Shown here: positions 40,482 to 64,000 of the stretch, piece by piece
Numbering within the stretch: position 1 is the stretch's first letter
How the letters are laid out: each line of letters begins with the position of its first letter
Source of the DNA: Cristatella mucedo
Lineage: Eukaryota; Bryozoa; Phylactolaemata; Cristatellidae
Assembly: GCA_009760855.2 (NCBI GenBank)
Contig: WPIO01000120.1
Location: forward strand, 372,001 to 436,000
Length of the DNA: 64,000 bases
Direction: 5' to 3'
Notes under the pieces: generated by a model
Databases searched by the model: none
What the model was told of the DNA's origin: nothing
Seen by the model: only the letters and a program-made list of their open reading frames with translations
Made by a program: the position numbers and the translations under genes

Positions 40482-40567
40482 GAGAAGCATGATCGGCAAC
40501 TTCAAAATATCCGAGTTCGTGTTGCTGGTGCTCCTACCTAGCATTTCTAATGCGGCTGGAGGAAACG
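40482..40567 (+). CDS. Receptor exon 1, signal peptide
   Basis: The acceptor aaattttacag ends at 40481, and the ATG is at 40489, 7 nt later. The frame encodes MIGNFKISEFVLLVLLPSIS then NAAGGN: a short polar start, a hydrophobic core (VLLVLLP) and a small-residue cleavage region, an ordinary signal peptide. The strong donor G|gtaagtag at 40568 is in phase 1, which matches exon 2 and gives N-A-T-E-D, with an N-glycosylation sequon across the joint. The acceptor before the ATG implies an upstream 5' UTR exon or spliced-leader addition. Linking it across 9 kb to exon 2 is inference from phase and content. Confidence 0.65.
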
Positions 40568-41715
40568 GTAAGTAGTCTCCTGAGTGAGCTTCTGCTACTT
40601 TTTAAATGCTAAAACATGCCCGAACACCAAGCGAAAAACCTATACCTAGGCAAGCAGCAACTACCGAGATCTGCTGCTTACTCAGCTTTCTCTTTCAACG
40701 AAGCTAAGTGGGCCAGGAGGGAGAGACGGCAATGCAATTTAAATTTGGTGAGAGGTGCACTGACTGATATAGCTTTAATCACACAGTAGGTGATGTGTGA
40801 AGACATATTCGCATAATCAATTGTCTATGGTTGTGTCTGAATTAATTATCTCCTAACGAAGTTGGCAATTAGGCAATGAATAAACCTGCACTTTACTCTT
40901 AGTGATTTCGGACAACTTAAATCTAGGCATTTGAAGTAACTACGAAGAGACATGGGAGTTACTGCTTTTGAAGTACCAAATAAATACACAAAATTCAATT
41001 AGTGACAAAAATCGACGTTACTATTTGCTGCCATTATCTATGTTATTTCCAACTTCCGTTGCCGGCATAATGAGATGGACATTCCGAATACTCGTACTAA
41101 CAAACACGGCTAGGGATTTTTAGCATATATTGAGTCCGCATCATTCACGGCTAAGCGAAATAGCTAATCGATTGTCCCGATACTCAATATTCATTCCTTG
41201 TTTGGAAACGGGTTGCGAATTGTAGAGGTCTTCTCTTGAGTGGAAACCTGAAAAACAAAAACTTATTCAGATAGAGCCTCAGTACCTTTCGGTCAGCCTG
41301 TAATCGCTTCGCTTCATTATCCTCTAGGTCAGAGGTGGGCAAAACTCCTTCCTTCAGGCCAATCCGGCCAAGCTAGTGCATCAGTCCGGCCCAGCGGCCC
41401 CCTAGTTGTTTATAGATGGATCAGGCCTAATTGAGTTGCCCTGGTTTTCTTCCCCTTCACCATAGAGGCACTTTGACATACGAGTATCCCAACTAACGAG
41501 CTTTCGTGGTACGAGCCGTCTCTCTGCCACATTTTCCTTTGAGCTGAGAGCCAACTGTTACTGTGCTTGATTTTCCTTTGTGCGTTTCTCAGTACCATTA
41601 TAGAACTACGACTTTGGGTTTCGCGTGGCTAGGGGCGGCAGCCCTTAGCCATGTCAGCTTAGCTCCAGAAAGTGTTATCAGTGCAAATGAGTGCGCCAGC
41701 GAGGCAAGTAAGAAG

Positions 41716-41791
<76 letters not shown>

Positions 41792-44700
41792 GGTGTGCGG
41801 TTACAAAGGCTCGTAAGGGAAGGGCAGCAGAACACGTTCTAACTGCTAGGTCGTGACGTCAAGCATAGACCTGGTGATTCCCTCCACGACCGACTCAGGT
41901 GAGCCTTCGGGTTAAGACCGACTACGGCAGGAACCGCTGCAGTGAGTACTTTACTTAGACAGTACCATCGTCTTGGAGATCGTCACGTAACTAAAGACAA
42001 TCTGGGCATACGCAAGAAGGCCCTGCCAGTAAAGTGGGCTTCGGCAGTTCGTTCTAGGGCACCAAGTTCCATTGGAACGCCTCTGGTGGTGTGCGTTAGT
42101 CATCTATATGCTCTATTGTTCTGCGTTTTACAAAAATATTCGTAATTTATGAGTAATTGTTTCTAATTTAGAAACTTCACGTAAGTCAGCGGTGTTTTTT
42201 GAGGGTCCGGAACGGTTTAATGATGTTTAAATTTATTTGTATCGGGAAAAGTGATTTGACATATAACTTCTTTCAGTTACGAGCCCCGTCACGAAACGAA
42301 TTGAACTCGTAAGTAGTACTGCACTGCCGGTCGCATCAGAAGCTGTGGCTCATGGGGTGTTTCTTTACCTAATATCTCTGGCTCTAGTACAAAACAGAAG
42401 CGCCTGACTGGGGAGGGATGATAAATATTGTGTTGCAAACAAGTTCACTATCTGGTCTTGGTTTATGCACCACTCACCTTAGTCAAGGAGTTTATTATGT
42501 GTAAAAGTGTGGGCTGTGAGGTGCCAAGCAATTTTACTTTATGGACATATTACTGAAATATAATATTCCGCACAGTAACAACAGTCACTAAGCCTATAGA
42601 GTAGAAGCAAAGGGCCTTGTACCATAATCCAAAAGATTGACCACAAGCAACGTATCTATAACCCCAAATGGACTTACGAGTTATTATTCGTCCAAGCGGC
42701 AACAAAGCCCTGTGTTTAGTGTGCAACGACACCGACGGCACTTTTAATAGTTCGAATCTCAACGGGGCGTTACGATGCCAAGCAGGCGTGCAAGTACAGA
42801 CACTTCACCGAGAAGGAGCGGAAGATGAGGCTGCTTGTTTAAAGTCGCATTTGGATCAACTATCGTCCCTCTTCAAGAAGCAGGCCGCCAAAGCTTATGA
42901 GTCTACTGAGCGGGGCACTCATGCCTCCTATGAAGTGTACTTATTGATTGCGAAGAAAATGCATCACTTCACTGATGCAGGTGTATTAACGAAATGTATA
43001 TTTGCTGCTGCCGACGTCATTAGTCCCGAGCAACCGGCCGCTTTTAAGGCAATCCCACTGTCTACCCACACTGTAACTCGGCGCATAGTAGGCTTAGCCA
43101 ATAGTGTCGGGTCTTCGATGTGCACGAAGTTCAAAACTCTCGAGATTTGCTCCATTGTATTGGACGAGAGCTGCTAAACCAAGAACACCGTACAGCTAGT
43201 CATCTTTGTGCATGGTGTCACACCAGACCTGGAGGTATTCGACGATTTTCTCAGCCTCGTCCCAATGAAGGCAATGAAAACCGTTAGAGATGTCCTCAAT
43301 GCCCTCCAACAGGCTTGGAGTTTTGGTTTTGACTTGTCAAAGCTCGTCTCGGTAACTATTGACGGTGCACCAGCCATTGCTGGATCTTCCAAAGGACTTT
43401 CACAACTGCTGATCAACCACCGCTGCTCTGTGGGCTGTGCTCAAGAGGTGCACTGCATCATTCACCAGAAGGCATTGTGTGCCCAAGCGGCAGGCATGAA
43501 GGACGTTGTGTCTGTTGTGGTGAAGCTAACGAAAGCAGTGCTTGCTCGTCCTGTGATCCACCGCATCTTCAAGCATATCTGCGAAGCTGCCGATGCTGAT
43601 TACGACAATCAGTGTACCACACTGAGGTGAGCTGGCTCAGTCGTGGCAAAGCCATGAAGCCTGTTTTCACTCTCCACCAAGAGATTGTTTTCTTCGTCTG
43701 TGAGAGGGGCCTCAAGGGCTTTTAAATGTTTTCTGACGAGGTTAGGCATTGTCAGTTCGTTTTCCTTATTGATTTCAGCTCTGACTTTAAAGAACTTGAC
43801 CTGAAGCGGCATGGACGTGACGTGCTCATAATGAATGTGGAAGCACACTTACGGGCATTCGGAAGCAAAGCTGGTTCTATGTGAGAAACAGCTGTATAAG
43901 GGCGACTACATCCATTTTAAGCTCCTCACCCAGTGTGATGCAGCTCTCGTTGATGCCAAAAAATTAGTCAGTGTCTTGTCAAAACTGCGGAATGGATTAT
44001 CTTGGTGCTTCACTTATGTGCCACCTCATTCTCAGGAGTGCAAAATCAGCACCCCTCCTCTTAACTTTCCGTATGACGACGCCCCCTCTGATGTGCAATT
44101 GGAGTTGATTGAGCTACAAGCTTCCAACTTTCTCTTGTCCATGTTTATTTCTTTTACTGCTCTCACTTACTTCTACCGTCAGCTGCCGCAGGCTCAGTTT
44201 AGAATGTTGTCAGCCATGCCAAGCATGTGATCATTATGCTTGACAGCACTTATTCCAACAAGCAGCTGCTCTCCAGGATGAAGTTTTATAAGATCAAGCT
44301 TCGCTCTCAGCTCTATGACAATCGCCTTAATGACATTCTGCTGCTGAACTCCTCATTATTTGAAGCTGATACGGTTGCCCTATCTAAAAACATGCACCAT
44401 CATTTTTCCCATTGAGCAAACTATGCCTTTGAATAAAAAAGCTTTCCTTGGACACAGTGTTATTACTGACATATTGTACAAACTTGAACTCCTGAAATGA
44501 CTTAATAGTCCAAACATTTTGCCGACCTCTGCTCTAGGTCAAATTATGTCAATTGATCGGATGAGGCTCTATACGTCACTCAGTATAAAGGAGAAAGTCA
44601 AGAAAATATTTTTACAATCGGTCAGATTATTGAACACTTGTTGCATTTTAAAAACACAAACACGTAAGAAACAGGATCGGCAGTTCTAAAGAAAGACTGA

Positions 44701-47700
44701 GCACGCAAAACATGATTAATCCGGATGTAAACCGAAAGGAAAAATCTACAAATAAATATGGTATCGATATCGGAATCATTTCTTACTTTTATTGTTTGCT
44801 TGTTGACCCTTGGTAGATCAAGGAACCTTTATAAAGCTTATATAGGTACATTCTTGTGACTGTTAAAAGGCTTTATTGTCTGTGTGGCTTTTCTCATCTT
44901 GTAAATTCCCTAACCCGGCCATTATTTCGCATATCGCAGTGAAATTTTAAATGCAAGTTAAGTTCTGCTTATAAAGATCAGTCCCACAATAATTTCTCAT
45001 TTTTCAATTGGTTATGTTTTTCTTTCCATGTCCATGGATAGCAATAATGCAGCTCCGTGATGTTTGATGACATGTGCAGCCGATATTCCAATCGATGTAC
45101 GAATGATTGACTTTGTCATTTTTTCAGCATCCTGTGATGATTTCAAGGGTAATTTATTCTCTGAGGTTGCGGATCACAGCTCGGGTAAAGCATTTCGTGG
45201 AGCTGGCATTGAAGATGCCTGATGTGTATAACTTTTATAATATTTGGGGACAAAATCCCTCTGGTGCAGTTCAATGTCCAGGAGAGGCCATACTCTTTCT
45301 GGCCGTTAAACTGTTCAAGAACGTCTTAATTTATTAATTTGTGACAAATTCTGAAACATTCAAGTCTAGAAGTAAAATTTATAGTTTAAAACGTTTAAAT
45401 CTATTGGCTGAGGCTATTCAAAGAGACTAGTTGTCGTTTCGTGTACTCCCATCATTGATCAGTGAGTCAGTAATTGGTGACTTATGCATTTGTTGTTAAA
45501 ATAGAATACAAGGTCACGTTCTTGACAATCAATGTATTCACCATCGCAGAGGATATTAAATCTCTATTCAGGTCAGACCGACAGCCATCAGAGAGGAAAG
45601 CATGTAGTTAGTCTAAAAAAAAAAGAGAAAAAGCAATATCCTTTGTTTCCCAATACCAGGCGAATGTGCTAGCAGGCCTCACTGTCCTGCAGTGGCCTTA
45701 CCTAACCGCTGGGTAAGCAATTAGTTAGATAGCCACTGGTTACTTTAACTGCTGCTCGCAGGTTGGATAAGTTTTGCGGCAGTCAGCAGTTAGCTGCTAG
45801 GCAATAGCAGTAGGTAGTAGGCCATTAAATAAAACAATGCAGTCAGATTTAAAGTTTCAAAATTGCACCGGATACTAGCTCGGCAGTCCCGTAACAGAAT
45901 GCAGCCTCAAAAAATCTATCGATTCCTTCTGCAAACAAAAACTTTGAAGTAGGTTTTCCGGTGCCATGAGTATTTAGACCTCAACTGATTCTATCCTGTT
46001 GGATGTTTTTATCTGTGTGCCTCATTGACGTTTGTTATTTCAGTGATGTCAAATCGAATTTGTGTGCAATCATCGTTAGTAGCTGTGACAGCCGTACGGC
46101 CGAGCATCTGGTGATGGGCAAGCACAATATGATATGCGTGTTAGCTGGAAAAGATGGCTTGTGGCTTGACAGATGTGCGTTGGACAAAAAGGACAACTAG
46201 GTAGAGGAATGTTGAGGCCACGGTGACTCACGGCTTTGCTGCCAGAAGCCCGTGCTCCTTGCTGATGTCAGATATGACGATCACACAGTAGGCTAAGAGT
46301 GAGAAGGCTAAGAGTAATGAGTCGCCTGTGTGGCAATTATGCAGAGGCTTCAAACCGTCTCTTCAGCCTGTAGGTGGCAGCTTCAAGGTATATAAATATA
46401 AATGAAATGAATTATACGAACTACATGCACGGTCTTCTAACGATTTGCCGTTTGTACGAGGTATAGGTAAACAGTTAGATTCCGAATAGCATGTGGTACG
46501 ACGTTTGGCCTGGTGGAGGAGTAGTTCCGAGAGGTAGGATGGAGCCAAAGAATGAAGGTATCTTAAAGTGAGTGAAAAATCTTTGAATTCGATGCATTGC
46601 TTGACTGTTAGCCAATGCCGGTTGGCGAGACATGGTGTGATGCTGCAACTGCCACGCTCGCGACAGACAAGCCTACCTGCAGAGCTTTGCACAAGCTGTA
46701 AGCTTCCGATTGCACATACCGGTAGGCCAGCAAACTGAGTTACAGAAGTAAAGACGGGATGTCACAAATGCATGGACGAACTTAGATGTGGTCTACCTAG
46801 CTAGATGAGCCAGAATTTTGGCAATTTTATGTAGCTGAAAGTAGGCAGACTTGGTTTTAGAGCTGATGTGGTCGTCTAATGAAAGGTCACCTTGGAACGT
46901 GACACCTAGATTCGCATAGATTTAACAGGAGATATGCGGGCAGTGCCAATTTTGAGTGTTAGGCTTTCTAATTTCTGAATTACTCATGGCTTACCCGTAA
47001 GTAATAAGTTAATTTGATCATCCTTTATATCTGGGTAGTTATTGCATGTATCAGATGCTGATAAAAATACATTTCAAATGGTACCAGTAACACCTGCAAT
47101 AGCTGGCGAGCAGTTTTCGGCTTATTTTTTCACTATTGGCAAATCAAAGGACGTTGTAAATTAGTCCAGATCGAGCTGCTAGATTGTAGCCCATATCAGC
47201 TAAATTCACGTTTTTCAATTGATTTGAGGTTATTTCTGGCACAGCCGAGCCGTACGAATCCGGCAGAGCAGCAAACAGATAATTGCAGAAGTTGAGACGA
47301 GATTTCACAAATAAATGTACTTAATTGTAGCCAGGATTCTTTTCTAAGGAGGCCTGACGTTTTGGGATTTTACACAGCTAAAAGTAGAGAGTTAGCTGCC
47401 TGCATCAAATGACGAATGGTTGATATTGCCAGACAGACCTCAGCACTAGCAGATATTCCTAGGACTAGACCCCTGATCATAGTCGCTGTGGAATCTTTTA
47501 TTATTTTGAATTGATAATAAGTTTATTTTGTATCTCTACTGAAACATTAGGACTCTTGTAATTTTTTTCAAGTGAACTCACCAAAGTCAAAATTTCACGA
47601 ACAATTATTCGGTAGATTATTTGATCAGCATGTCATTATCTTTATTGCTGCTCTATTGCTTCACAAATACCAACTATAAAAAGGTTCTTTCGTTTCTTTT

Positions 47701-50700
47701 AAGTTTTTGTTTTGCCAATTCTTGCTCCTAAAAACTGTGGAAGATGGCCATTATTTTCACAAACCTAACCTTTACCTCAGGAAAGATATCTATTAGATAT
47801 TTAGACACGTAAATAAAAAAAACAGACCAATGTTTTACTTAAAATTCAGTATTATAGACAATAAAAAATGAACACAAGTGTAGACGCCTGATACTGAAAA
47901 CACAAAAAATACATTTTAGAGATATTTGCTCTATATTCTTAGTCAATTGCATGAATATGCCCCAAATGTGTCAGTGCGTGTTCTGTTGAACCTGTTAATA
48001 GTACGAGCGAGAATTCACATAAACGATGCAGATTCTATATGGGAGGTACTTTTTACTGCTTATAGGACCATGATAACAAGCAGCTAAGTAGCTCACTCTT
48101 CACAATCGACGTCGTCGATTCGAGTCTTGCACTGGGCGATCCTTTCTTTCCCAGTGGAAGCAGCTGGGAGAGCTGTTGAGGCTCTGCTGCTGCTATACAA
48201 ATAAGGCTATTCAATTCGCCACTGTTTCATTTCATGTACTGACGGAAGTCGGAAATGATTTCTAGGTTTATATGACAAAGATCTCTGATGAATTCTGTGA
48301 GACGTTTTTTGTTTGGTTATTAAGAGATTGTCTCCCGAGCTTCACTACCTAATTGTTTTCATTTGGATCTACGGCACTTTCCTTGCTCACTGACTTGCTG
48401 CTCAAATCTGAAGAGGCTGGCCTCTCTTTGCATTAGTGGGTGCATGGAGCTCGGAGAATTGCAGTGCCGTTGCAATAGATGAAGAAAGGCCAGGTTATGC
48501 AATGTCATATGCGTTCTGGCAGGTACTATGCTTGAATTGGTTCACCTTGCAGAAGTAGTAGTTGCTTCATCGGTGAGCGGTTCAATATAAAATGTGTGTG
48601 GTATAAACTTCGCTGGTCTGCGGAATTAATATTAAGTTTCTTCGTGGATGAATCTGTTTGACTAAACTTTAAAGATGACTGACTAGTGCTCGCCTTCTCA
48701 GCATTCAGAGCTTTTTGGCTGTTCGTGCAGGTAAAATGAAGTGAGCAAGGCGCATGTTCTCGTCCGAGACGAATTCCCCAAAATATGGCCTCTAGACCAC
48801 CCATATTCTAGCAGATATTTCATTTTATTGTACATTTAGCCCTTTTCTTTAGAATCGGAGCTCAATAATAGCAAACAAGCTGCGGAAATCCTTGAAGCTC
48901 TTTGCTGTCATCTCATAAAAATGTATAAACATATCCAGCAGGTGATGAATCCACGCCTCAATGAATCATTCTCCGAGTCAACATTAAATATAGGCAGATA
49001 CCACTGAACCGTTTCACATTTTGTGTACCAACATAAATAAATCTCATTACAGTATAAGTACAAGTGTTGGAACTTAAAAGTGAAGCAGTTCTAAGCTTCA
49101 TAGGTTTTCTAATAAAGATAATTGATAAATCATATTTTCGTAAATAGTTGCACGATCGATTTCATGAAACAACCATTGCTGAGTTGTAAGGGACGCATCA
49201 ATCGGGGCAGTAAAAATCACCAAGTAGGAACCAATCTGGCAGACCCAGACTTATGGGGGGGCTATTATCAGCTCCTGGGATACAAGCCAGTACATATCGA
49301 CTGATGCCATTGACCAGGATCTGGACTGCTAGTCTGAAATAAATTTCATTAATAATACACCGTTGGAAGAAATTCAAAAAAATGTGTTCTACTTTCCATA
49401 CATGAAGTAACTGCAAAGGATTAATGATCTAAATGGCTTTGATTTACGCTATGTATGATGTTTGTACACGAGAACTAGCTTTAAAGGGCTTTTTTATAAT
49501 TTGTTGTGGCTGGCCAGCTGAGGAAGAGCACAGCTGATTGGATGGAACCAAGGTCTTACTGCATTTGTGCATGGCTCTCAGCGAACACAAGTTTCATCTA
49601 ACACAATACTAAAGTTCTTTCAAAATGCATTAAATTGCTAGGCAGAGCTATCGAGATTCTATGAAAGTAAAGCGCATACGTTGTTCACAGCTACAGAGGA
49701 CAGGCTCGTCTCTTCTCTTCTGGAAACGTACAACATGTTTGCAAGACCACATGCTGAAGTGGTGAACGTAACTCTAGATTTCTCTATCGACTTTATTAAC
49801 TATTTGGTGAGTGATACAAGCATAAGGCGTTCAGCTGTGTTTCTCAACTTTTTATGTTGCTCTTTTGTTTTATCAAACTGCTATTTTAGGACGAACGAGA
49901 ACAAGAACTATATGTGTCAGTACTTTTGACAGCGGTAAGTCGCAGATTTTGATTTCCATTGTCGATATCAATTAATAGTCACGGAGAAAACTCATTAAGG
50001 AGCTTGTTTAAAAGAAATCAAAAAATAAAGGTGGCATGTATTTTATAGAATTTGCCATTTGGTCAGTTTATGCAATTTTAAAAATCACAAGAAACTTGAG
50101 CACAAACGTTTTTGAGCAGCCACTATGCAAATGTAATAATTAGCAATAGGTACAATGTCTTAGAAAATTCTAGTTATAATATTTTTCCTTGTGGAATTTT
50201 TATCTTAAAGAACTCTAGAATCAATTTAGAAATTTGCTAGAGCTAAGTTTCAGGAACGTAAAATAGCCAAGTTTTAGATATGAATATCGATCTGTTCATG
50301 CTTTTCCAAGTTTCTGCAATGCATGTTAGAGTGCGTGTTCTTAAAAAACACTATGAGGCATGATTACATTTAGCATGCTTAAGTGGAGTCAAGTGGACAT
50401 AATTATGATTTAGTTTCTTCCTGTATGTTCAGTTCATTTTCGAAGCTCTGCATTTTTAACCAGCATTTTAGCGAGCGTTTTCAGTGAGTATGTCAAAAAT
50501 TGAAGTCACCACCCAACAGCAAAAAATGATAAGGGCACTTAATCGGTTTAAAATTATTAAAAGCGTTAGAAAGTTGTATTTAATTCCAGCGTCCGCAGAT
50601 CAGAATGCATCAAAATGGGATTTATAATGAATCTGTAAGTTTGGTGAAGAACGCTATTTCCAGCGGAATGTATATGAGAATTTGAGCGAACAAATTAATA

Positions 50701-53700
50701 CATTCAGAAAATGCTTGCTGCAATAATTACAATAGTAATTACAGATTGTTTAAATAGAACACCAATACAGCTTCAGTTTCGTTATAAAGCTCTTGACATC
50801 AACATCTGATCAATCAAAACCTCCATCATCTTGACATTGATGGTGGAGTTTTGTAGGGTCAAGTGTCTTCAAAAGCTTCTAAACTTCCATCAAGAAACAA
50901 AATTGGCATTAAGACCAGTGAGCTGATAATCCTTAAGTGTGATTTCTTGTCAGATGTATTAAGTGCTATCTTTCATTATCCTTTAAACCTCCTTCTCTGC
51001 CATGAGCAACATCTTCAGACAGTTATTTAGGAATTTACGTCCATCGGCAGATTCTTCGTTCAACTTCCATTCCAAACGATTCACATTTTGTTTTGACATC
51101 TAGTCGCGATTCTTGCCCCAGGTCTTCTCACAGTTGACAATTCAATTTTAAGAGAGTGGAGGTCACAAGAGGCGTCTTTGAATTTTATATTCGGTTCCTG
51201 ATGTATTTTCTGAACGTGTTCAATAATATTTAATATGTTGCACAAAAAACAGCAACAGAGTCAAACAGTTGAAGTTCAAAATACGATGTAAGACACTGCC
51301 AGCTTCACATATGATTTTAATTTGCCACTCGTGCTCTCAGAAAGTTGCTCTAAAAGACATAAAAAGCTATTTAGTCGATCGTGGATAGCTTTTGCAGCCT
51401 CGACTCTTGTACCCCACCGTGTAGGAGGATCACGTTTTACAGTGATGGCTAAGACTTCTTTCAGTTCTTCTCACCTGAGATTTGATCTTGAAAAGAATAA
51501 GTAGGTGTTCTCTTTTGTTCCAAAAAATTAATGATAGCAGAATCTTGACTTGGAACATGACACGAACATGACATGAACGCTGACAGGTTCAACCTGTTTT
51601 CATCATAGTTTAAAACAAAATTATTTCTCATTTCTAGACAGTATTCTCTTTTAGACACGTGAAAGATAGCCAGACCTGGCGGCTGCATTTTTTTCGTTCT
51701 TCAGCCATTAAGTAGGCCTACCTTCTGTGGTCTAATAGTGCATCGGTGCTCAGTTGAACCACATCACCGCCTATTGTAAAAGCAAAGTCTTCAAGTCGAG
51801 CCAAATATCTGAGTGTTTTACTAATGTTTATTGTTGTTCAGTTTCAGAATTAAGGCCGAGATTCCGGATAGGATTGTCTGTTTGTAAAGCATAATAACAA
51901 AAAATAATAAGTCATTCGTATAGCGCCCTCGAAGAACTAAATTTTTCTCTAGTCATTTTACAAATTTTTTTTATAGAAGTCATTCCCAAATGTTTAGTGG
52001 TAACATCTGCAAGCAGCAGGCATAGTGCAACCATTTACACGCACAAGAGGGTTAAAGCACAAATACCTGCCAACTGCAGTAATAAACAGGTGAATTGTGA
52101 TGTTCTTTAAAATTTCTTCTCGTCGGTGGACGTTGCGACATGTGTCAGTAGTGAGTTCCAGGATTTAGGAGTGCAGGAACTAAGGCCGTGGTCTCCAACA
52201 TTTTGTCATGCACATGAGCCGCAAGAGAAAAAGAGTCAGTCAGTGCCGGAAGTTCGGCACCTAATGCTTCAGTTAAGTCGTCACAACGAGTGTTGACATC
52301 ACCAATAACGAGGAAATGTTGATTTCTGGGACACAGAACTTAAATGAGATCAGAGAAATCTTGATAAATGAGGATTTTTTGTACCTCGTAGGTGATACAT
52401 TACTGCCACCATTGGCAGCTTGTGGTCGGAGCTACATAAAACGAGAGATTCAAAAGGCTGTTTCAAGGGGACTGCAACGGCTTGTTTTAAGGGAGGAGTA
52501 AGTGAAAATGACGACTCGTCCTGTCTAATTGATCTGGGGGTATCAAAAACGAGAAACCCATTAGTGCCATTGGTTATAGTAGGACTGTCAGTCGACTTAG
52601 GCCACGCTGGGTTTAAGTGAGCATCTCCCGATCGCTATCAATAACCATCTAGTGTATTATTAGCGGTTTATTACACATCGAGCGAGCGCTCTATGGACAG
52701 GCATTAAGTTAGGCTGCTGGTATAATAGTCGACCAGATAACCCCCAAGTTCTAGTGATGTACACTGGCTCTCTGTGCATATCGGGAAGGTCTGCATGAGA
52801 AAATCTTGTTAATACCGAACGGGAGGGGCCTTAGCCCGCCCAAGCGGCTCCCTGTGGGCCCTCTTATAGATAAACTCGGGGCATTAATCCCAGTAACCAG
52901 AAACATATCTAGCAAAGAAATTGAATTATAGTAGCTTAACGATAATAGGCATGCATTATCGCACCTAATATGCCTGTTTTTAACTGTTAATGAAATTAAG
53001 TTTTTCAGACGCTTGTTCAGACTCCGATAATTTAAACGACGAATACAGCTAGCTTTCTTCAGCCTATTAGTTTTTCATAGTTAATAATAGTTAATAAATA
53101 ATTATAGTCAACTCAGCCAGTCCCATGAGCTTGATTTAATTCTCCTAGGGGTACAGTATAGAAGAACATAAGCAAGGGACCTAGAAGGAACCCTTTGGGG
53201 ACTGCACGTGTGACTGGTCTGGTGGACTTTACCTGGTCCCCCACACAACACGGCTTGAACAAGAAAAAGTACGATCTGAACCTCGTCTGTCAATAAATCC
53301 TGGTTCTCAATCATTTAAGTAGGATGTCGTGATAAATGGCGTCAGCATCAAGTGATATATTTACCTGCTCTAGGACAGTGACATTCCTGTCATTGTTGCT
53401 GAATAGGTTTTCACTGGTTACTTGGAGGAGAGCTATTTCAGCTAAGTGGTGTCACTTAAATTCCGTTATAAATGTTTCCGACAATGCCGTGTCTAACTAA
53501 CACTGACGCCTATTTTTAAGGGAGGGACAGTATTTCTTTAGATGACATTATCACGATCTTGTATGAGTTACTTCGCTTTTGACAGATCGGAGAGAGAGTT
53601 GTCGGGAAAATAGTCGTCGGCACGAAGCGTCGGTTATCCTGATAGGTAATGAGCTATTCCAGACACTTAATAATATTGCTATTATAAATCAGAGGACCTC

Positions 53701-54331
53701 ATAGTCAGATCACTTCAATCTCATTCTATTTACTGTGCCGCCTGGCCTCTGGTACAGTGAGCGTATGTTGAGGAAAGACATTAGCCCATACAAAAACGAA
53801 GCAAGAAATCTCATTGCGTTTGGTTTTGATTCACAACATGCTTATTGTTAATCTAGAATGTTTTTCTAGTGAATTGAAAGAAATACGTGGAAATAGCATT
53901 ATTGAATTAGAAACGATCTAATTTTCCGCACTAACTGCTTCTTCGTTCAATGCTGCTCATCCGGGGCAGAGGGCGTATAGAAATACCTCTACCGCTTCAA
54001 AATAATTGCTACAAACATTGCAGTTTTGGCACGATCCACGCCTCAGGTGGGACCCAAACAAGTGGAGTGGCATCACTTCGATATCGCTTCCAGCCACAGT
54101 AGTATGGAAACCTGACTTTGCACTCGTGAACTCGTGAGTAAGAGACTGTGCTAATTTTGCTTCGGGTAAAGCTCTAGGGGACTTTTTTACTTTTTAAATA
54201 TGCAATAAATACTGTTTTCTTTATAGGGCAGATGAAATATACCACAAAGAATTTCATTCGCCTTACTTCCTCATTGCGATTGACTACAAGGGAAAAATGA
54301 TTTGGACAACCTATGGGATCAGATCTGTGAG
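40489..54331 (+). CDS. Nicotinic acetylcholine receptor-type subunit, 5' part
   Basis: Partial gene of the Cys-loop ligand-gated ion channel family: a plasma-membrane pentamer gated by acetylcholine or a related ligand. Five exons join in phase (1, 0, 0, 2, 2): signal peptide; N-terminal helix; the 45-nt exon DEREQELYVSVLLTA; the 110-nt exon with FWHDPRLRWDPNKWSG and VVWKPDFALVNS; and an exon with LIAIDYKGKMIWTTYGIRSV. Exon sizes of 45 and 110 nt and the motif order W-x-D-x2-L-x-W-x-P then W-x-P-D are diagnostic. Two pocket aromatics are replaced: loop D Trp by Leu, loop A Tyr by Val. The Cys-loop and helices M1-M4 must lie downstream; I searched to 64 kb without finding them. Introns 1 and 3 are long (9.1 and 4.1 kb) and carry transposons. 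Confidence 0.85.
41461..42321. mobile_element. Nonautonomous DNA transposon nested in the hAT element
   Basis: Matches 59793-60740 at several blocks: tttgacatacgagt near the left end, cgagccgtctctctgccaca, accgactacggcaggaaccg, gggtccggaacggtttaatg, and a right end whose complement is cagtactacttacgagttca. Terminal repeats of the form CAGTRGTACY...TTACGAG suggest a Tc1/mariner-like or similar cut-and-paste MITE. The superfamily is unsure and the left edge approximate. Confidence 0.6.
41718..41790. repeat. Pure GA microsatellite
   Basis: 73 bp of uninterrupted AG repeats inside the nested transposon. The related copy near 59.9 kb lacks it, so it expanded after insertion. Long glutamate/arginine frames across it are artefacts. 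Confidence 0.95.
42668..44415 (+). pseudogene. hAT transposase pseudogene, GTF2IRD2/ZBED-like
   Basis: The order is intact but interrupted. A zinc-finger remnant (CLVCNDTDGTFNSSNLNGA) comes first, then VLTKCIFAAADVI and the first catalytic block LEICSIVLDESC, followed by an in-frame TAA at 43175-43177. The same frame continues FVHGVTPDLEVFDDFLSLVP, then VSVTIDGAPAIAGSSKG with the second catalytic Asp, and VHCIIHQKALCAQA. A frameshift near 43613 precedes EVSWLSRGKAMKPVF. After more breaks comes the C-terminal part (APSDVQLELIELQA to 44180, YSNKQLLSRMKFYKIKLRSQ to 44415). At least one stop and several frameshifts make it non-functional. Same broad group as the 4.6 kb element. Confidence 0.88.
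45128..46200 (+). other. Exon-like chain inside receptor intron 1
   Basis: Three segments with splice-like borders join in phase: 45128-45184 (ASCDDFKGNLFSEV, donor gtaaag), 45550-45571 (EDIKSLF, donor gtcaga) and 46044-46200 (DVKSNLCAIIVSSCD, then ICVLAGKDGLWLDRCALDKK to TAG). Entry is phase 1, so receptor exon 1 could splice here to give a secreted cysteine-bearing protein of about 104 aa in place of the receptor. It could also be chance. No family is recognised. Confidence 0.25.
46380..47040 (-). mobile_element. LINE A fragment, C-terminal domain
   Basis: The minus-strand frame 46692-46363 reads SSAGRLVCRERGSCSITPCL, NRHWLTVKQCIEFKDFSLTL and LHSLAPSYLSELLLHQAK. Upstream, 46740-47040 is the frameshifted RT thumb region (plus text gagctgatgtggtcgtctaa parallels 7151-7170). 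It lies in receptor intron 1, antisense. Confidence 0.85.
47230..47475 (-). mobile_element. Second LINE A fragment
   Basis: Plus text ccggcagagcagcaaacaga, ttgcagaagttgagacgaga and ttcacaaata parallels 7008-7062, so this is a second, more diverged C-terminal piece in the same orientation. It may be a duplicated or separate insertion. Confidence 0.6.
48068..48215 (+). repeat. SINE-2 copy, diverged
   Basis: Contains agctaagtagctcactcttc, the box B-like gtcgtcgattcgagtcttgc, then actgggcgatcctttctttc and the tail ctgctatacaaataaggc. It lies in receptor intron 1. Confidence 0.6.
48216..49690. other. Rest of receptor intron 1, no other feature
   Basis: AT-rich, short frames only. Nothing supportable before the exon 2 acceptor. 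Confidence 0.4.
49691..49806 (+). CDS. Receptor exon 2, N-terminal helix
   Basis: Acceptor acgttgttcacag, phase 1 entry; 116 nt; donor TTG|gtgagtga, phase 0. It encodes TEDRLVSSLLETYNMFARPH, then AEVVNVTLDFSIDFINYL. The pattern ERL-x3-L-x3-YN-x3-RP, then a V-x-V-x-F-type beta strand, is the standard start of mature nicotinic receptor subunits. NVT is a possible N-glycosylation site. Confidence 0.88.
49890..49934 (+). CDS. Receptor exon 3 (45 nt), loop D region
   Basis: Acceptor ctgctattttag, donor GCG|gtaagt, phase 0 at both ends, 15 codons: DEREQELYVSVLLTA. It aligns with the D-E-K-N-Q-x-L-x3-x-W-L block of nicotinic subunits. The position of the conserved loop D Trp is Leu. The 45-nt size equals that of the conserved exon 3 of the family. 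Confidence 0.88.
49935..51890. other. Receptor intron 3, 5' part
   Basis: AT-rich. A short segment, 50590-50634, has a good acceptor (gtatttaattccag) and donor (TCT|gtaagt) with an open 45-nt phase 0 frame, RPQIRMHQNGIYNES, but it does not fit the receptor order. No other feature. Confidence 0.35.
51891..52745 (-). mobile_element. LINE A fragment with internal deletion (tail, C-end, endonuclease)
   Basis: On the minus strand, starting from the 3' end: tail at 51891-51965 (tagcgccctcgaagaactaa), 3' UTR, a short C-terminal piece (52140-52195), then a direct jump at about 52196 into the endonuclease region. Plus text catgcacatgagccgcaaga and caccaataacgaggaa parallels 8906-9010. The whole RT domain is missing. 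It lies in receptor intron 3. Confidence 0.75.
53105..53345 (-). mobile_element. LINE RT fragment, third type
   Basis: The minus-strand frame 53314-53108 reads YFFLFKPCCVGDQ-like sequence, then VTRAVPKGFLLGPLLMFFYT and VPLGELNQAHG in neighbouring codons. This is the RT block VPQGSVLGPLLF-x-x-Y followed by the stretch before YADD. The wording differs from families A and B. It lies in receptor intron 3. Confidence 0.6.
54024..54133 (+). CDS. Receptor exon 4 (110 nt), loop A region
   Basis: Acceptor gctacaaacattgcag, donor TC|gtgagtaa, phase 0 in and 2 out. It encodes FWHDPRLRWDPNKWSGITSI, then SLPATVVWKPDFALVNS. The W-x-D-x2-L-x-W-x-P signature and the W-K-P-D loop A are intact, but the usual loop A Tyr (x-L-Y-N) is Val (A-L-V-N). 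The 110-nt length equals the conserved exon 4. Confidence 0.92.
54227..54331 (+). CDS. Receptor exon 5, loop E region
   Basis: Acceptor tactgttttctttatag, donor GTGAG|gtgaag (weaker), phase 2 at both ends, 105 nt. After completing Ser, it encodes ADEIYHKEFHSPYFLIAIDY, then KGKMIWTTYGIRSV. This fits the segment after loop A leading to G-x-x-x-W-x-x-x-x-I-x-S just before the first Cys of the Cys-loop. The next exon should begin with that Cys; none is found before 64 kb. Confidence 0.88.
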
Positions 54332-56020
54332 GTGAAGGCAGCTTTATTATTCTTTCCCACATTAGTTATTCATCCACTAATTTTTTTAGACAATCGGATG
54401 TACATCTATAAAATTAAACAGATCAAAACTACTGGATTCTTTAAGGCCAGTCGTCAATCCAAGCGCCAGTAGTAAGTTTCTTTGTCGCTGTCCAAGGGGG
54501 CTTTTAAAACTCGCCTGACTAACTTCTGCCAAAATGTGCATATGCTTATGTACAAACTTAATTGTAATGATTCACATAACACTGTTAAAATTTTGGGACG
54601 GAAGTTGTCCACTAGTGATGCACTTCTCCGCCTTCTACCTTCCCTCCTTCTACCTCAGCTTCCTCTGTTTAGCCTAATAAGTAATTGCTTTTAAATTCAC
54701 CGGCCCAGCCTCGGTGAGTGCAGATGCTGGTGCGATCGAATGATTAATATACTAAGCCTTGTGTGTGCTACAATGAGATATTGAGCGTAACATGAATTGC
54801 ACCCTCTAAATATGATCACGATTTCAAAAACTTGAAGTAGTAGTCTGTCCAGGCTCTTAGGACGCTTCGAAGTTAGCTGTCGTTTGCATTTCCTAATAGC
54901 TTGACTTGCTGCCATATCCATAAACACTGACACGGGTTAGTATTATTAATACAAGTCATACTATTTTTCCAGAATCTGTTTATCTCTAACCAATCCGTTA
55001 AAAAATTATAAAAAGAATGGTCAGTATTGAAAGGTGCGAATGCCAGCTTAAATGGGATAACAACTTTAGTCTGCCTACGTTTTTAGGATCATGGGCTTCA
55101 TAATTCAAGACTTCGGTCTACAACCCTCTTTTCATTCATTACGCAAATTCTATTAGGTTTTATATGTCATTAGAGTGTTCAAAATGCGTTTAATTACAAT
55201 CAGCAAGGCTGCATTGTAAAAATTAGGGGTTCCTAATATTGTAATACAGCCAAACTGGTCACCTTTCTATATATGTTGTCTATTCTAATTAATATGTGTA
55301 TATATGCATATCGATATATCTATATAATATCTAATGTCTATTGTAATTGTGTTACAAAGTATGGATCGGTCTTCATCTCATTCAATCAGATGTTTACACT
55401 TTGTGCAAAGTTTTTCACTTTCGCTTGTCTTTCGTGTTTTTTCAAGTTGCCAGAATGCATCTGTTCTCATCGCTATGTACAGAGTCCCCATATTTCTTCG
55501 CTTTAATTTCAAGGCTTTGTCACTCAGTTTTTGTGCCACTATCCTATTGCAGTAGAGCAGAAACACTTTGAAATCACTTTTATAATCCTTCGGCCGCATA
55601 TTTGCTGAATCGACTTCTCACTAATTTCTTAGGACACAACACCGAGCTCGGTATGCTGCTAGTTCTTGCCGACTGGTTAAAATACCGGTGAAGCATGAAA
55701 CCACGAACCAAAATTGTATGAGTCGACATCAACTCGCCGGCGTAGCCCGATTACAGGCTGGGATTCCCTTGGTTTCCGAGCACTGCAGCAATAAAGGGCG
55801 CCCATATGACCCGTGACATATCCACTGCAAAGAGCAGTCCATTTGAAAGGCTCGGATGGCTATTAGTGTCCAGCAGCAACCAAAACTTGTAACTAACTCC
55901 TCTCGTTCGACGTCCACAGCCGCTTGACTCCAAGCCCAGAGGGCTACTCTCTAGTTTCACGTCAAAACCACAAATGGCTGGATATTGAATTACTCTAAGC
56001 CTTTAACGTGGCACAATGAT
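54332..56020. other. Receptor intron downstream of exon 5
   Basis: No Cys-loop exon found. Acceptor-like pyrimidine tracts at about 54394, 54657 and 55443 lead to stops or to sequence without the C-x-x-D-x3-FPFD pattern. Otherwise AT-rich. Confidence 0.4.
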
Positions 56021-56026
56021 AAACTG

Positions 56027-56029
<3 letters not shown>

Positions 56030-56062
<33 letters not shown>

Positions 56063-56064
56063 AA

Positions 56065-56101
<37 letters not shown>

Positions 56102-56155
56102 TGTGTGCGTGTGCCTGCGTGCGTGTGCGTGTGTTTGTGTGTGTGCGTGAGTATA
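56030..56155. repeat. Compound TA/TG microsatellite
   Basis: About 29 bp of (TA)n, then a short joint, then (TG)n, which decays into tgcgtg-type units. Cys/Val-rich and His/Thr-rich frames here are artefacts. Confidence 0.95.
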
Positions 56156-56495
56156 TATAACAGGTTATTGATTAATATAAATCCCGAGCAACGAGTAATA
56201 CCTCTGCAGTGTTTACCCGGACGGTGTAACCGATAAATGTTTTTGTGCGGCCAGCTCTTCGGTCTCATGATAAGAGCTGTACCTCAATACAACTGCTAAG
56301 CCTTTGTAAACCGTGCCTTCAGTACGTAAGCTCCGAACAACTAAAACACTAGCCTCGCAGAAGTTAGGTGATCTCTTGCCTTGACTACAAGTAAATAGAA
56401 ACAAAAAAGCCGTTTCTTTCTGAACGCTTTGGCGAGGTCAATGTAAACCGCAAATTGTGTGCTTTTGGATGTGGACACTGTGCGTATTATTAGTG

Positions 56496-58270
56496 ATAAT
56501 AATAATCAAACCTTGTTTATACTGCCCTTAGAGAATTTGATCCCCTTCTTTGCAATTTGAATATGCAGAATTAAAAGCTAGACGATACAGTTAGCGTTGA
56601 AATACACCGTGTCAGCTAGAATTAAAACGCAAAGGGCAATTATAAGGACTGAATTCGGTGAGGAAAATGCCCGTTTTCGAATTATTTTCTCCAACTGCTA
56701 TCAAGTGGAGATGTATTGTTTTCATTCGTGAATGAGTGCCCATCTTCGGAAGAGTGTGCACTAAAGGCATCGTCTCTAAACGAGTTAAGCTCAATTCAAG
56801 GCACAGCTTGACTGTATGGACTAGAAGATTAAGTTGTATGACGTCTAGATGGATAAGTAGGCTGAAGCAAGACAATGCATGTGATCTAAAATTTGAGTAA
56901 AAGAACCTTGAATTCAAAGCTCTACTGGGTTGGGAGCCACTTCAGATCGGTGAAAAATGGTGTGATGTGGCAACTGCGACGCTTGCGGTAGACAACCATA
57001 GTTGCAGAGTTTTGCCGTAAACTTTAAGCACTTAGTTGAACAAACCAGAGAACCTGCAATAATTAATTAAAATAAGTCGATACGAGATATCGTAAATGCA
57101 AGGAACAGCTTGAATTTGGGAACCTGGTGTAAGCAGTTCCTACGTTTTTACAATGTTATGAACCTGAAAGAAGGCAGGCTCGACTATGGAGCTGATCTTG
57201 TCTCTTTGCAACTTCACACACCCAGATCTCATACAGATGGCTGAGGATTTATGCCATCTGAGCACAGTAGTGAGTTTTTTTTATTGATCATTCAATATGA
57301 GAATGTTTATTTCAATCCAAGAGAAGTTGTAAGCAATGGATGCATCGATTGAGGTAGGAATTTGGTGTGCTAAAAAGCTTGGGGATCAAAGTATATTTAC
57401 AGCTGTGTGTCATCGGCATATAAATTAAAGCCTGGATTATTATAGGCGATTAAATAATTTGTACGAAAAACGGGATAAATTTTGAAAATAAGTAGACCGT
57501 GCACACATTTCTGTGGTAGTCCGTAATTTAGAGGCACCTCTTGTCATATTTGCCTGCTGACACCAATGCTCTTGAGTCATCCATTGTTATATTAATGCAC
57601 CATTAGAGTTGAGAGCAGTGCCAGTGACGTCTAGGCGGGATGAAAGGCGATCGAGAAGGACTTGTTAATCAATATTGTCAAACGCTGCTGAAATATATAA
57701 GCAAAACAAGCGGACATACATTATCTGAGTGTACATTCGTGGGAAGTTAGTTTTACACCCAAGGCAATTATGTCTCTGTGTGTAGATATTCTCAAAAAAA
57801 GGACTGGAACTTGCTTGCTCTGTTTTGAAGTTCTAATGGAAGAGTTGAATTGAAGAGCTGGTCTTCTACTAATCGTTCCAGTGTCTTTGATAAGAACCGG
57901 CAGTGGGGAGCCTACGCTAAAGTGGCTTAGGTTCTCCTATTCTGGCCGTGCATTTTTAACGATTAGCTTAACAGCAAGGTGCAGAGACAAAATGTTTACC
58001 TAAGTACATATTGATTATGTTAGTTATACACGACAGTATCAGATATGCGCATGACAAAAGAGCTATATAAGAACCCTATACCTATAAAAAGTGGCCGTAG
58101 GGTCTAAAGAGCTAGAAGTCTTTTCAGAATGAGAGATTAACTTTAAGATAAGGTAGTGGCAGTCTTCAATTTTGAAATGGTGGTGCTTCAAGCAATTGAG
58201 GAAGAGGAGTCAATAAGAGAAGTTACTAAAGGAAATGAGTCTAGTTACTTTATCAATGCTTTACTACCTA
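56496..58270 (-). mobile_element. LINE A-like copy, strongly diverged
   Basis: In minus-strand order from 3': tail (plus text ataataataatcaaacc, tgcccttagagaatttgatc), C-terminal region (gatgtggcaactgcgacgct at about 56960), the RT YADD region (ctgtgtgtcatcggcatata at 57404), the block near GSVLGP (about 57500), the AFDTID region (tcaatattgtcaaacgctgc) and part of the linker up to about 58260. Order is preserved but frames are lost. It is an old copy. Confidence 0.75.
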
Positions 58271-59120
58271 ACGGACGAACTTTCTGGTCTTTTCAATGTT
58301 GCTGATAAATCCAGTGCTTTATGCAAGCTGTCCGAACTAACCTCTACGTTCGTTAATTAAACTTGCACGTAAGAGTTTATCATAACCTGTTATCTGGATA
58401 TGATTCACGAGGCTTTAATTAATCTGCATCTAAAACTCACTTCAGCCTGACATAAAAAACAGTATTTTCAACTTTTTTGTTAGCTGAATTACGCAGATCA
58501 TCCAGTTGAAGTTTTCGGGAGGTTTTACGATGATTTCGGCTGTTTGCAATACCGTTAAAGCCTACTTACAAGAGCTTCTCTGTTTATCCCGCAGTGGCTA
58601 ACGCCCAGGTAGTTCCGGTGGGTTTTCTGGGGTATACATGAATAGAAAAACTACACTGCACCTTAAAAATATAGTTTTAGCTATTCATTACGTGCTTTCG
58701 TTGTTTGGTATACCCAGAATGGGAAAGCTTTGAAAGTTATTAAAGTAGAGCAAAGACTGACATTCAGGAATTAAAAAACTAAAGTTGGGATAGATTTTGG
58801 TTTTAGCGAACGGAAGATTAACTGTAACATCCGCTTCTATGTGCTGAACTTTGAATCTAAAATGTTACAGTGATTGATATATAATATAGTTCGAAGTGTT
58901 TATTTTAAGAGGCCGTTGACTTGCCAATTTGAAATTATCAAAAAGAACAGATAGTGTCGCTTGTATTAATCTCCCTCTTATCTGGCAGGTCAAATATAGT
59001 TATTTATAGCCCATACTTATAAAACTGGGTCAATATTACAATGAATTCCAACTATCTGCTCTACTTAATGAATACAAACTGAGCAAATGCTTTTACCTCA
59101 TTCTGGTCACTTCATTGCGA
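58271..59120. other. Sequence with no supported feature
   Basis: AT-rich; no exon of the receptor and no transposon end recognised. Confidence 0.35.
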
Positions 59121-59195
59121 ATATAATATTAATAGCATTATATTTTTTAACGCCCTCGGAGAATCAAAATATTTTGTAGGCACTTTACACATACT
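59121..59195 (-). mobile_element. Isolated LINE A 3' tail
   Basis: Plus text atattaatagcattat, then acgccctcggagaatcaaaa and gtaggcactttaca. This is the LINE A tail with no recognisable body. Confidence 0.6.
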
Positions 59196-59792
59196 GTAAA
59201 TCTAGCAATATCTTGTTACGCAAGTCATGATATTCACTCGATGCAGCCCGATCCTACCTCCTCATGTGTGTCGAATTTCGTTGGCCTTCATTTGCCCTAT
59301 AAGTGCCAAGTTAAAGTTAAGTTTCAAGCGCATCTATACGGAAGAAAGACATCCAAAACAAATAAGTTGCTACTGCTTAAGCCCTGCAACTATAGCGGAA
59401 ACTCACTGTCAGTCAGTGAAAGCGGAATGCATATTTCTGTTAATAATTCTCCTTATTAATTGACGTCATTAACTTCTGTAACAATCGACATCACTTGCTG
59501 TACTTGACAACACTGAGGTCCCTTTTCTTAAAGTTACCTCAGGTACTCCTAGCATACCAGATTATGGATTTAGTGCATTCGTTTTTAAAGCTGATCACAT
59601 TCATTTCATTTTCATGACCAGCAAAGCCACTGAAGTGCAACATTACTTAAGCTAACTACTGTGTACGAACTTGGGAGTTGTTTTCAAAAATTCTTGTCAT
59701 TTTTTTGAAAAACTGACTCTTACTTGGCGTCAGACTTTTGTTATGGACAAGACATGTAGCCTGGTTGTTCACAATTACTACTGTTTACAATT

Positions 59793-60740
59793 CAGTAGTA
59801 CCAAGGCTTACGAAAGTGTCTCGACATATGAGTGTTTCGAGATATGATCTGTCTCTCGGCCGAATTTTACTTTGAGTTAGGAGCTAAAATTCGGGTTAGG
59901 AGCTTCAGATACTCCGCCTCTATTTGCCACAGCGAACGTCAGACTGCGTGTGGTTCTCAGGCGGCCATTAGACGTAGGGCAGCGAACGACGTTCCGTTGC
60001 ATGACGGTGCCCCACGACCCGGGTGTGGCACCAAGTGCAGGCCTGTTGGTTCACTCCCAGACAGACTAGGGGGAGCAATCGCGGTGCTGGGACACGTAAG
60101 ATTGCCAAACTCTGGTGTTAAATTCGACCACGGCAGGAACAGCTAAGTACGTACTGTACTCTATTTAGGCAATATCATCGTGTGAGATTTCATTGAATAA
60201 CGGATAACAATCGGCGCGTCCGAGTAAAGGCCCAGCAAATAAACTGAGCTTTCGGCTACGTGTTGGTTGTCTATACGCTTGCCTGCTTGATGCGATACTG
60301 TCGCGTGGTTATTAAGGATGAAGCCGACCTCATTGGATAGGTTTTTATCGAAAACCTCTGCAGATGAAATCTAGGACAGCCCAGCGAAAAGGGCAAATAT
60401 TGGCAAATAAGATTCACAAATTCATTTCAGCCTTTCTCCTCTAACTCTTTTAGTATCTTCAAGTCGTCTGATGTCCAAGTTGCTATTGTACATAAGAATT
60501 ATTAAAAATCATTTATTATAAGATATTCTATTGTATTGTTTTTAAAACGATATTTATTACTTATAAGTACACGTTTTTATAATTTAAAAACATGTGACAC
60601 AAAATTCCAGAGTTTTTTGGTGGTCCGGAATGGATTAGTGGTATTTGTTTTCAATTGGGAAAATGTTTTTGAAATACGAGTAACTTGCGTTACGAGCTCC
60701 AGCACGGAATGAAGTAAACTCGGAAGCCGAAGTAGCACTG
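59793..60740. mobile_element. Nonautonomous DNA transposon, second copy
   Basis: The left end cagtagtaccaaggcttacg, and the right end with complement cagtgctacttcggcttccg, form inverted repeats of about 20 bp. Internal blocks match the copy nested in the hAT element (tcgacatatgagtgtttcga, atctgtctctcggccgaa, gaccacggcaggaacagcta, ggtccggaatggatta, cgttacgagctccagcacgg). No transposase is present. A TA dinucleotide follows the right end, but the left flank is TT. The frame 59832-60146 is within the repeat and not a gene. Confidence 0.7.
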
Positions 60741-61214
60741 TATTCTGTAGATTTATACAGTCTTGTGTACTATTACATGTTTATTTTCATCTCTACTTAT
60801 TAAAATATAATGAAACACGGCCTTAGCCATCACGATTAATTGTATTACCTGCATAAACTACATTTTTAGAAAAATTAGGATATCGACCATAGAAAATAAA
60901 TACATAATTTGAAAAATGTATCTTTATCAGTCATCAAAAAGCACCTTCATTCACGTGTTAGTTTTAGAGTGATTCCTGTAGTTCTGAAGACTCGTAAAGA
61001 GCTTTATTTAAATACTTCTTTGCTGACAGACTTGAATTCGCTTATAAATCACTTTACGTATGTCCACCACCTCTGAGGTTTTAACCATGCACAGTAACGC
61101 TGGCTGCCTCAAGATCCGAAATTTGCAAAGTAAATCCTGTGGCTATCTAGCAGATTCTGATTCTAGCCTTTTCCAGAATGATAAATTGTATCAGGACTAC
61201 CTCTATTTTAGCGT
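60741..61214. other. Sequence with no supported feature
   Basis: AT-rich sequence, possibly the 5' edge of the following LINE remnant. Confidence 0.3.
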
Positions 61215-62430
61215 CTTCATTTGATTTTCGACTCTCAGTTGATTGCAGCACCTCAATGTCTAACTTCAAGCCGTCTTCTCAAGGTTTCAGCGAGTTTATA
61301 TTCGTCTAAGAATAGTGATAGTCCTCTAGATCCCACGCCCAATGTTCATCTTCTGAGGTGCATTGATTCGATACTGCCAGTCATAACAAAACAATTGCAT
61401 CTCTAACCTCTGTTCTAGTCCTCCATTCTTCGACTGCTCTCATTAGCAACCTCCTTAAGAAGGAGACATTAGACTAGGAGAATGGAAGCAACTGCGGTCA
61501 ATTCACCCTACTACTGCTCCTATCAAACAGACTGAAACGAGTATGGGCAAGCCAGCTTCACTCCTATATTTCTAAACTTGACACGAATTTCATATCGAGT
61601 TTAAACGCTAATTACTCTACTAAGTGAGCTCAAATGAGAATGTATTCAGAGCTCAATAATGCTGACTCAGGTTAAGTCTCTCTGCATTTTCGGCAGTTCG
61701 CTGTAGCATCTTTTTCTAATGTAGATTGCACCTATTTTAAATCCGCGAAACTATATAGCTTTGAATTATCTGTCACTGTCTGCTTTATTCAAAGTGCCAT
61801 CGCAGTTGGACACTTTTGAGCATTGGTGCCAATGGGCAACAGAGTCCTTCAAGGAGACTCTGAAAAACGGGCACCCCAGGCATGTGTGTTTGTCCCGCTT
61901 CTTTGCACAATTTGCACTGTTCCTTTTTACTAATTAAATCTTTATGTTTCTGTTTAATGAAAAGTACGCACAGTACACTACCTTTTCTTGGATCTCTCCC
62001 TGCCTTGCCGCACACCAACTCTCTAGACTTCCATGCTGCGTGCATAGCTGGCATTCATTCGCACTTTGGTGGCGCAAAAAAATTCTAATGCAATTACCAT
62101 AGAACCAAATTACTAGCTATAGGTAAACCTTGTGTTACCTGACTTTGATAAACCTGACCTTCAGAAGGGGGCAGGTCCAGCATATCCACTGCTGCTTCAG
62201 CGGACAATAGTGGCGTCCACTTCCAAATCGACCTTTCACTAGCCTATGAAATCAGCTCCACACTTAAGTCTGCCAAATTGCAGCTAGGTAACACTGCAAA
62301 ACTTTGCGTTTTATAGACTGGTATACCATATCCAATTTGGTCCATGTATCTGCTGCATTAGATCTCAAAATTAGTCCCTTGCTACCGGTAGGTTTCTCTT
62401 AAGGTTCTTACAGTAGGTTCGAAACTCTGC
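61215..62430 (+). mobile_element. LINE A-like remnant, plus strand
   Basis: The frame to 61406 ends SSKNSDSPLDPTPNVHLLRC then IDSILPVITKQ, parallel to SPLDPIPTVMLLRCIDLLLP of the full copy. Decayed RT entry follows (LLLLSNRLKRVWASQLHSYI at about 61510-61570), then NANYSTK. Near 62250 and 62340 there are traces of the thumb region (ccacacttaagtctgcc). Heavily mutated. Confidence 0.65.
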
Positions 62431-62440
62431 AACTGCCATA

Positions 62441-62556
62441 GTTTAGCCCAGCAGTTAAGGTGCTCGTCCCAAATGAGGTCTGGCTGAGGTCTCGGGCTTA
62501 AGCCCTGTTGCATATGTGATGCTCCTTAATAGAGATTGAGTTCTCTTAGGGCGCAG
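62441..62556 (+). repeat. SINE-1 copy
   Basis: Reads gcccagcagttaaggtgctc (box A region), gaggtctcgggcttaagccc (box B), then tgctccttaatagagattga and gttctcttagggcgca, the L2-like tail. The next SINE starts within 10 bp. Confidence 0.75.
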
Positions 62557-62559
62557 CAA

Positions 62560-62742
62560 CTGCCGTGATGGCACACTAGGTCAGACGGTTGCTTTCACGA
62601 CCTCGGTCCCGAAGTCGTGGGTTCGATTCGTGGGGTGGGCGATTTTTTATCGCCACTGCAAGCGGTGGTGATAGCCGTAAAGGTTCTTCTGTCGCTATAC
62701 AAAAAGAGGCTGTTTGATCAGCTAGGATTTATTTTTTTATTT
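62560..62742 (+). repeat. SINE-2 copy, best preserved
   Basis: Box A region gatggcacactaggtcagac, box B ggttcgattc, body gggtgggcgattttttatcg and gcggtggtgatagccgtaaa, end gtcgctatacaaaaagaggc then gatcagctaggatttatttt. It directly follows a SINE-1 in the same orientation. Confidence 0.88.
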
Positions 62743-62884
62743 AATACAAATGAGTTTTATTTTTTATATTTTTTTTAGTCTATTGTAAACGTGGCAATTA
62801 CAACATGACATCATTTCTCACCGACCCGCACTGGCTTCTCATTCATTAGCATGCCGGATCAATAATAGCAACACTTTTTCTTTG

Positions 62885-63690: not shown

Positions 63691-63804
63691 CTTAATTCAT
63701 TCTTTTGTTCCATCATACCTATGTTAGCCACTTCCTAGTCAAACTGTGCATTACACTACCAGCCGAAGTTACTCAAGTTGTTCATATTTTTTAATCAATA
63801 TTAA

Positions 63805-63930
63805 ATCGTTCGGATACCACGTCTAAAGTTTGTGTGCATCCGAAGCAAAGACATATTTCTTATTGACTTTAAGGCATCCCCTTACTTGGAGGAATTTAAA
63901 AAGAATTTGAAACCCATTCAAATCTCAACT
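63805..63930 (+). mobile_element. LINE A scrap with internal deletion
   Basis: Starts like SDTTSKVCVH (parallel to KDTTSKLAHA), then jumps to YLEEFKKNLKPIQIS (parallel to LTTFKKNFKTHLF). Only the two ends of the C-terminal domain remain. Confidence 0.5.
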
Positions 63931-64000
63931 AATTTTTCTGATTGAGTTTGAATTGGCTTGACACTTTGCTTTTATTACTAATAATATGGTGATTTTTGGA

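Follow-up and report, generated by a model that had tools for sequence, protein, structure and literature searches.

The 64,000-nucleotide stretch of Cristatella mucedo DNA analysed here (the window; C23:372001-436000 of the genome that was searched) contains the first five exons of an intact ten-exon gene for a nicotinic-acetylcholine-receptor-like subunit of the Cys-loop receptors, an identification that we regard as nearly certain. All of the exons lie on the forward strand. Exon 1 (40489..40567, 79 nt) carries the start codon and the signal peptide MIGNFKISEFVLLVLLPSISNAAGGN, then breaks in phase 1 at a GTAAGT donor; its region was matched at C23:412489-412581 in a protein search of the genome, while the start codon was picked by position and this signal peptide exon stands without paralogue support. 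Exon 2 (49691..49806, 116 nt) encodes the ligand-binding domain from its N-terminal helix through the first beta strands, and its size and phase recur in the paralogues C23_1216k, C11_181k and C23_246k (119 nt in C11_61k). Exon 3 (49890..49934, 45 nt) encodes DEREQELYVSVLLTA, with Leu rather than Trp at the loop D position; three paralogues likewise have 45 nt here, and their loop D sites are Tyr, Tyr and Lys. Exon 4 (54024..54133, 110 nt) extends from WHDPRLRW to WKPDFALVN, has Val rather than Tyr at the loop A position and is 110 nt long in all five paralogues in which it is readable. Exon 5 (54227..54331, 105 nt) covers the loop E region, including a three-residue insertion common to the family, and the first part of intron 5 (54332..64000) leads to the edge of the window, beyond which the gene runs on.

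The preliminary description of this DNA had joined five exons between 40489 and 54331. Its start, end and two quoted junctions coincide with our gene model, and the positions, GT-AG borders and phases are correct to the base, as are the lengths of 45 and 110 nt given for two of the exons. Exons of 45 and 110 bp are typical of nicotinic genes; our literature search for these sizes returned no paper. The same description held that no single frame over 40 codons marks the gene, which is true of the coding exons (none in the window exceeds 39 codons) but not of the stop-to-stop frames, which reach about 95-109 codons. Within intron 1 we also observe a long (GA)n microsatellite (41717-41790) and, at 42668-44230, broken open frames that look like a transposase-derived gene, perhaps of the SCAND3/hAT type, with no Pfam match. 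Elsewhere in the window, a hAT dimerisation domain and fragments of LINE-type reverse transcriptase (RVT_1) occur at 4989-5360 (+), 7388-7879 (-) and 13029-13421 (+).

Where does the gene continue? In a scan of the 572-Mb genome the Pfam ligand-binding profile matched exon 4 by itself (window 54021-54137, E 2.2e-7) and a further exon on the same strand 12 kb downstream, outside the window, which is the Cys-loop exon; the membrane-domain profile matched an M3-M4 region at C23:443982-444221, again on the same strand. These downstream matches indicate that the 10 kb following the window hold the remainder of the gene: exon 6 (C23:438301-438471, 171 nt, window-equivalent start 66301), which carries the Cys-loop, exon 7 (C23:439168-439336, 169 nt), exon 8 with M2 (C23:439819-439915, 97 nt), exon 9 (C23:440007-440119, 113 nt) and exon 10 (C23:443904-444293, 390 nt, window-equivalent end 72293). 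The Cys-loop and M1-M4, predicted to lie past 64 kb, are thus present. Joined by hand and then checked by script, the ten exons (79, 116, 45, 110, 105, 171, 169, 97, 113 and 390 nt) add up to 1395 nt and 464 amino acids, with a terminal stop, no internal stop and AG/GT at every internal border.

The encoded protein has the domain order of signal peptide, ligand-binding domain, Cys-loop, M1, M2, M3, short intracellular part and M4. Neur_chan_LBD (PF02931) matches residues 29-234 over the full profile (1.6e-44, compared with 8.2e-27 for joined exons 1-5), and Neur_chan_memb (PF02932) matches residues 242-441 over nearly the whole profile (1.3e-27). Exon 6 encodes a Cys-x13-Cys loop of exactly 13 residues with a Pro-Phe-Asp core, CELNLTYYPFDTQTC. 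Among solved structures, nicotinic alpha subunits match best, led by Torpedo alpha (4aq5_A; E 1.4e-59, 205 bits, 31.6% identity), with 5-HT3A following in the PDB comparison at 131 bits and the top 60 PDB matches to the full protein including no anion channel. The M2 segment, SEK-IALDITLILSF, has Glu-Lys at its inner end and lacks the anion-channel insertion; Glu at -1' is typical of cation channels, and Leu occupies 9'. Judged by these match scores, the predicted protein belongs to the nicotinic (cation) branch, inside the Cys-loop receptors to which it had been assigned from the first five exons. Position 17' of M2 is Asp both here and in those paralogues whose exon 8 can be read, whereas it is Val in Torpedo and hydrophobic in the nicotinic subunits compared; a ring of such residues could place extra charge near the outer mouth of the pore.

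Every coding exon within the window is short, as would be expected if unrelated open stretches had been assembled by chance, but the profile matches, the exon borders recovered from paralogues and the complete downstream half exclude chance as the source of the five-exon join, leaving this explanation with a negligible probability. The recovery of borders is precise: with exons 2-5 from a paralogue at C23 ~1215k as queries, the best matches were exactly the four intervals already described, scoring 106, 32, 146 and 57. Unrelated matches in the rest of the window, on the opposite strand or in the reversed window scored no higher than 22, 20, 12 and 9. Exon sizes and phases are likewise repeated in the paralogues.

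These paralogues form a large family. Protein searches of the genome locate relatives on C23 (182-1216 kb), C11, C110, C464, C99 and C53, where they occur in tandem arrays. Matches of the exon 4 type were found at about 22 places on those contigs, the window gene included, giving some twenty relatives—a count of exon matches rather than of full gene models, and therefore rough as a number of genes. Four aligned paralogues (C23 1216k, 1162k and 246k; C11 61k) show 43-54% identity with the window protein over the readable exons. The loop A residue is V, I, M, R or T in 11 of 11 members from C23, C11, C110 and C464 (the window gene included) and never Tyr, while loop D is Leu, Tyr, Tyr and Lys in the four members with a readable exon 3, again counting the window gene. 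All five aligned members share the three-residue insertion after loop A, and four of the five have the string FYSSYY. One further paralogue, C11_181k (C11:174700-181400), has an in-frame stop at the end of its M1 exon (exon 7) and no exon 3 was found; it is probably a pseudogene and was left out of the pocket alignment on both grounds. The suggestion that the gene belongs to an expanded lophotrochozoan family fits the tandem arrays of relatives, and the family is most likely lineage-specific, intron-rich and tandemly duplicated.

The mitochondrial contig of the same genome (C688, 21 kb) also agrees with that suggestion in its code and gene blocks. Its COX1 uses AGR for Ser, ATA for Met and AAA for Lys, as in the invertebrate code, and the gene blocks COX3-K-A-N ... 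I-ND3-S and ND1-ND6-CYTB-S-ND4L-ND4-H-ND5-F resemble the order of chitons and other lophotrochozoans. ND2 and COX2 are encoded on the other strand. The contig additionally contains a stretch of ~2.1 kb present twice in tandem, with tRNA-like matches for Ser, Gly, Ser and Val, and repeat positions of 5030-6095 and 7145-8210 (reverse complement).

Is the window gene itself still functional? Its sequence is divergent and at least one duplicate of it is dead, so that decay of the window gene into a pseudogene deserves consideration. The duplicate, at C23:827300-834900, covers the region of exons 6-10 with introns included at ~87% identity and has accumulated six in-frame stops, several deletions, losses of splice sites and ~1.6 kb of inserted DNA between its parts. 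Its identity to the window gene is nearly the same in exons (0.879) and introns (0.874), and it serves as a neutral reference against which selection on the intact gene can be gauged. With paralogues and vertebrate subunits showing which side had changed, 28 amino-acid changes are assigned to the duplicate against 4 to the window gene (two-sided binomial ~2e-5), which demonstrates purifying selection on the latter. The dN/dS against the dead duplicate, 0.585, is weakly informative on its own, and the polarised counts are the stronger measure; differences between the window gene and live paralogues amount to 0.38/0.23/0.64 at the three codon positions. These counts, together with 464 codons free of stops and frameshifts and intact exon borders, make it very improbable that the window gene is a pseudogene.

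What remains of the ligand pocket? The window protein was aligned with Torpedo alpha, alpha4 and the four paralogues. The vicinal cysteines of loop C that mark alpha subunits are replaced with Ser-Ile, and are missing from the four paralogues as well. The principal-face aromatic set Y93, W149, Y190 and Y198 reads Val, Trp, Tyr and Tyr, the alignment of loop C being uncertain at the Y190 position. On the complementary face, the loop D Trp present in alpha4 is Leu (Arg in Torpedo alpha). By this alignment, the classical acetylcholine site is damaged on both faces, but the principal face retains two core aromatics, the Trp of loop B and Tyr198 of loop C, which all five aligned family members still have. 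The replacements of the loop D Trp by Leu and of the loop A Tyr by Val had been correctly read in the preliminary description; the altered pocket is real and extends to the loop C cysteines, but it is a trait of the whole local family and not specific to this gene. Missing aromatics had also been offered as a sign that a normal acetylcholine site usually cannot form, and here the argument needs tempering, as single subunits without the loop A or loop D aromatics are common and Torpedo alpha itself has Arg at loop D.

One explanation of these losses is that the product is an accessory, structural subunit, which would join conventional alpha subunits and adjust acetylcholine-gated channels while contributing no binding site, as vertebrate beta1, beta3 and alpha5 do. 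The absence of the Cys-Cys pair, the loop A Tyr and the loop D Trp is what a purely structural subunit would also display. Conventional genes are at hand in the same genome, one on C133 that keeps the loop A Tyr and one on C66 with an alpha-type Cys-Cys loop C, so that partners for heteromers exist. Against this stand the roughly twenty relatives with a changed loop A, many more than the accessory subunits that well-studied animals have, and the retention of the loop B Trp and Tyr198 in all aligned members, an indication that the principal face remains in use. We accordingly give the accessory role appreciable weight while considering it the less probable account.

We favour instead the view that the gene encodes a cation-channel subunit and belongs to a lineage-specific family not gated by acetylcholine at a standard site, and hold this to be probably correct when identity and ligand are judged jointly. 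Five such subunits, drawn from a single family member, from several, or combined with subunits of other kinds, would form a channel whose cation conduction is suggested by the Glu-Lys at the inner mouth of M2 and the lack of the anion-channel insertion. Acetylcholine would no longer bind to the remodelled pocket in the usual manner; the channel would most likely be gated by another ligand, possibly a chemical from the environment or the body fluid. Since the standard residues are lost but the loop B Trp and Tyr198 are kept, we lean somewhat towards gating by another ligand over a purely structural role, with a small remainder left for other outcomes. The window gene is intact and selected, the loop A Tyr is lost in every family member examined and the channel frame is kept; the family would therefore make a good test of whether lophotrochozoan nicotinic-like expansions consist of accessory subunits or of receptors for other ligands.

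Massive lineage-specific expansions of nicotinic-like genes, in tandem arrays and with diverse pockets, are documented in molluscs and annelids (Jiao et al. 2019, PMC6896357); of 132 oyster genes, only 33 belong to the alpha type and the complete principal site survives in 13 (PMC6896357). The bryozoan family resembles them in its size, tandem arrangement and altered pocket. Many expanded molluscan genes, however, are intronless or have one or two introns (PMC6896357), whereas nine introns persist in the window gene, whose exon sizes and phases recur in the readable paralogues. Alpo4 of Alvinella pompejana, an orphan annelid nicotinic-like subunit without vicinal cysteines, did not respond to acetylcholine (PMC10338036); like the window protein it lacks these cysteines and keeps the loop B Trp, but it has Phe in loop A and Trp in loop D where the window protein has Val and Leu. 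The whole domain plan, the Cys-loop, the Glu-Lys of M2 and the 9' Leu are shared with Torpedo alpha (PDB 4aq5), from which the window protein differs in its missing loop A and loop C residues, the insertion of three residues after loop A and the Asp at 17'; the lack of the loop D Trp sets it apart from alpha4. Cephalopod chemotactile receptors, which number up to 26 genes in an octopus, are nicotinic-derived cation channels that sense hydrophobic molecules and are not gated by acetylcholine (review PMC11526382). The resemblance of the present family to them is an analogy drawn from their description only, and it is a speculative and rather unlikely idea that the twenty or so intron-rich channels independently became a chemoreceptor set for ligands other than acetylcholine, in parallel with those of cephalopods. 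The window gene adds to the known altered expansions of nicotinic-like subunits, among which its nine preserved introns and the absence of an aromatic from the loop A as well as the loop D position are distinctive.
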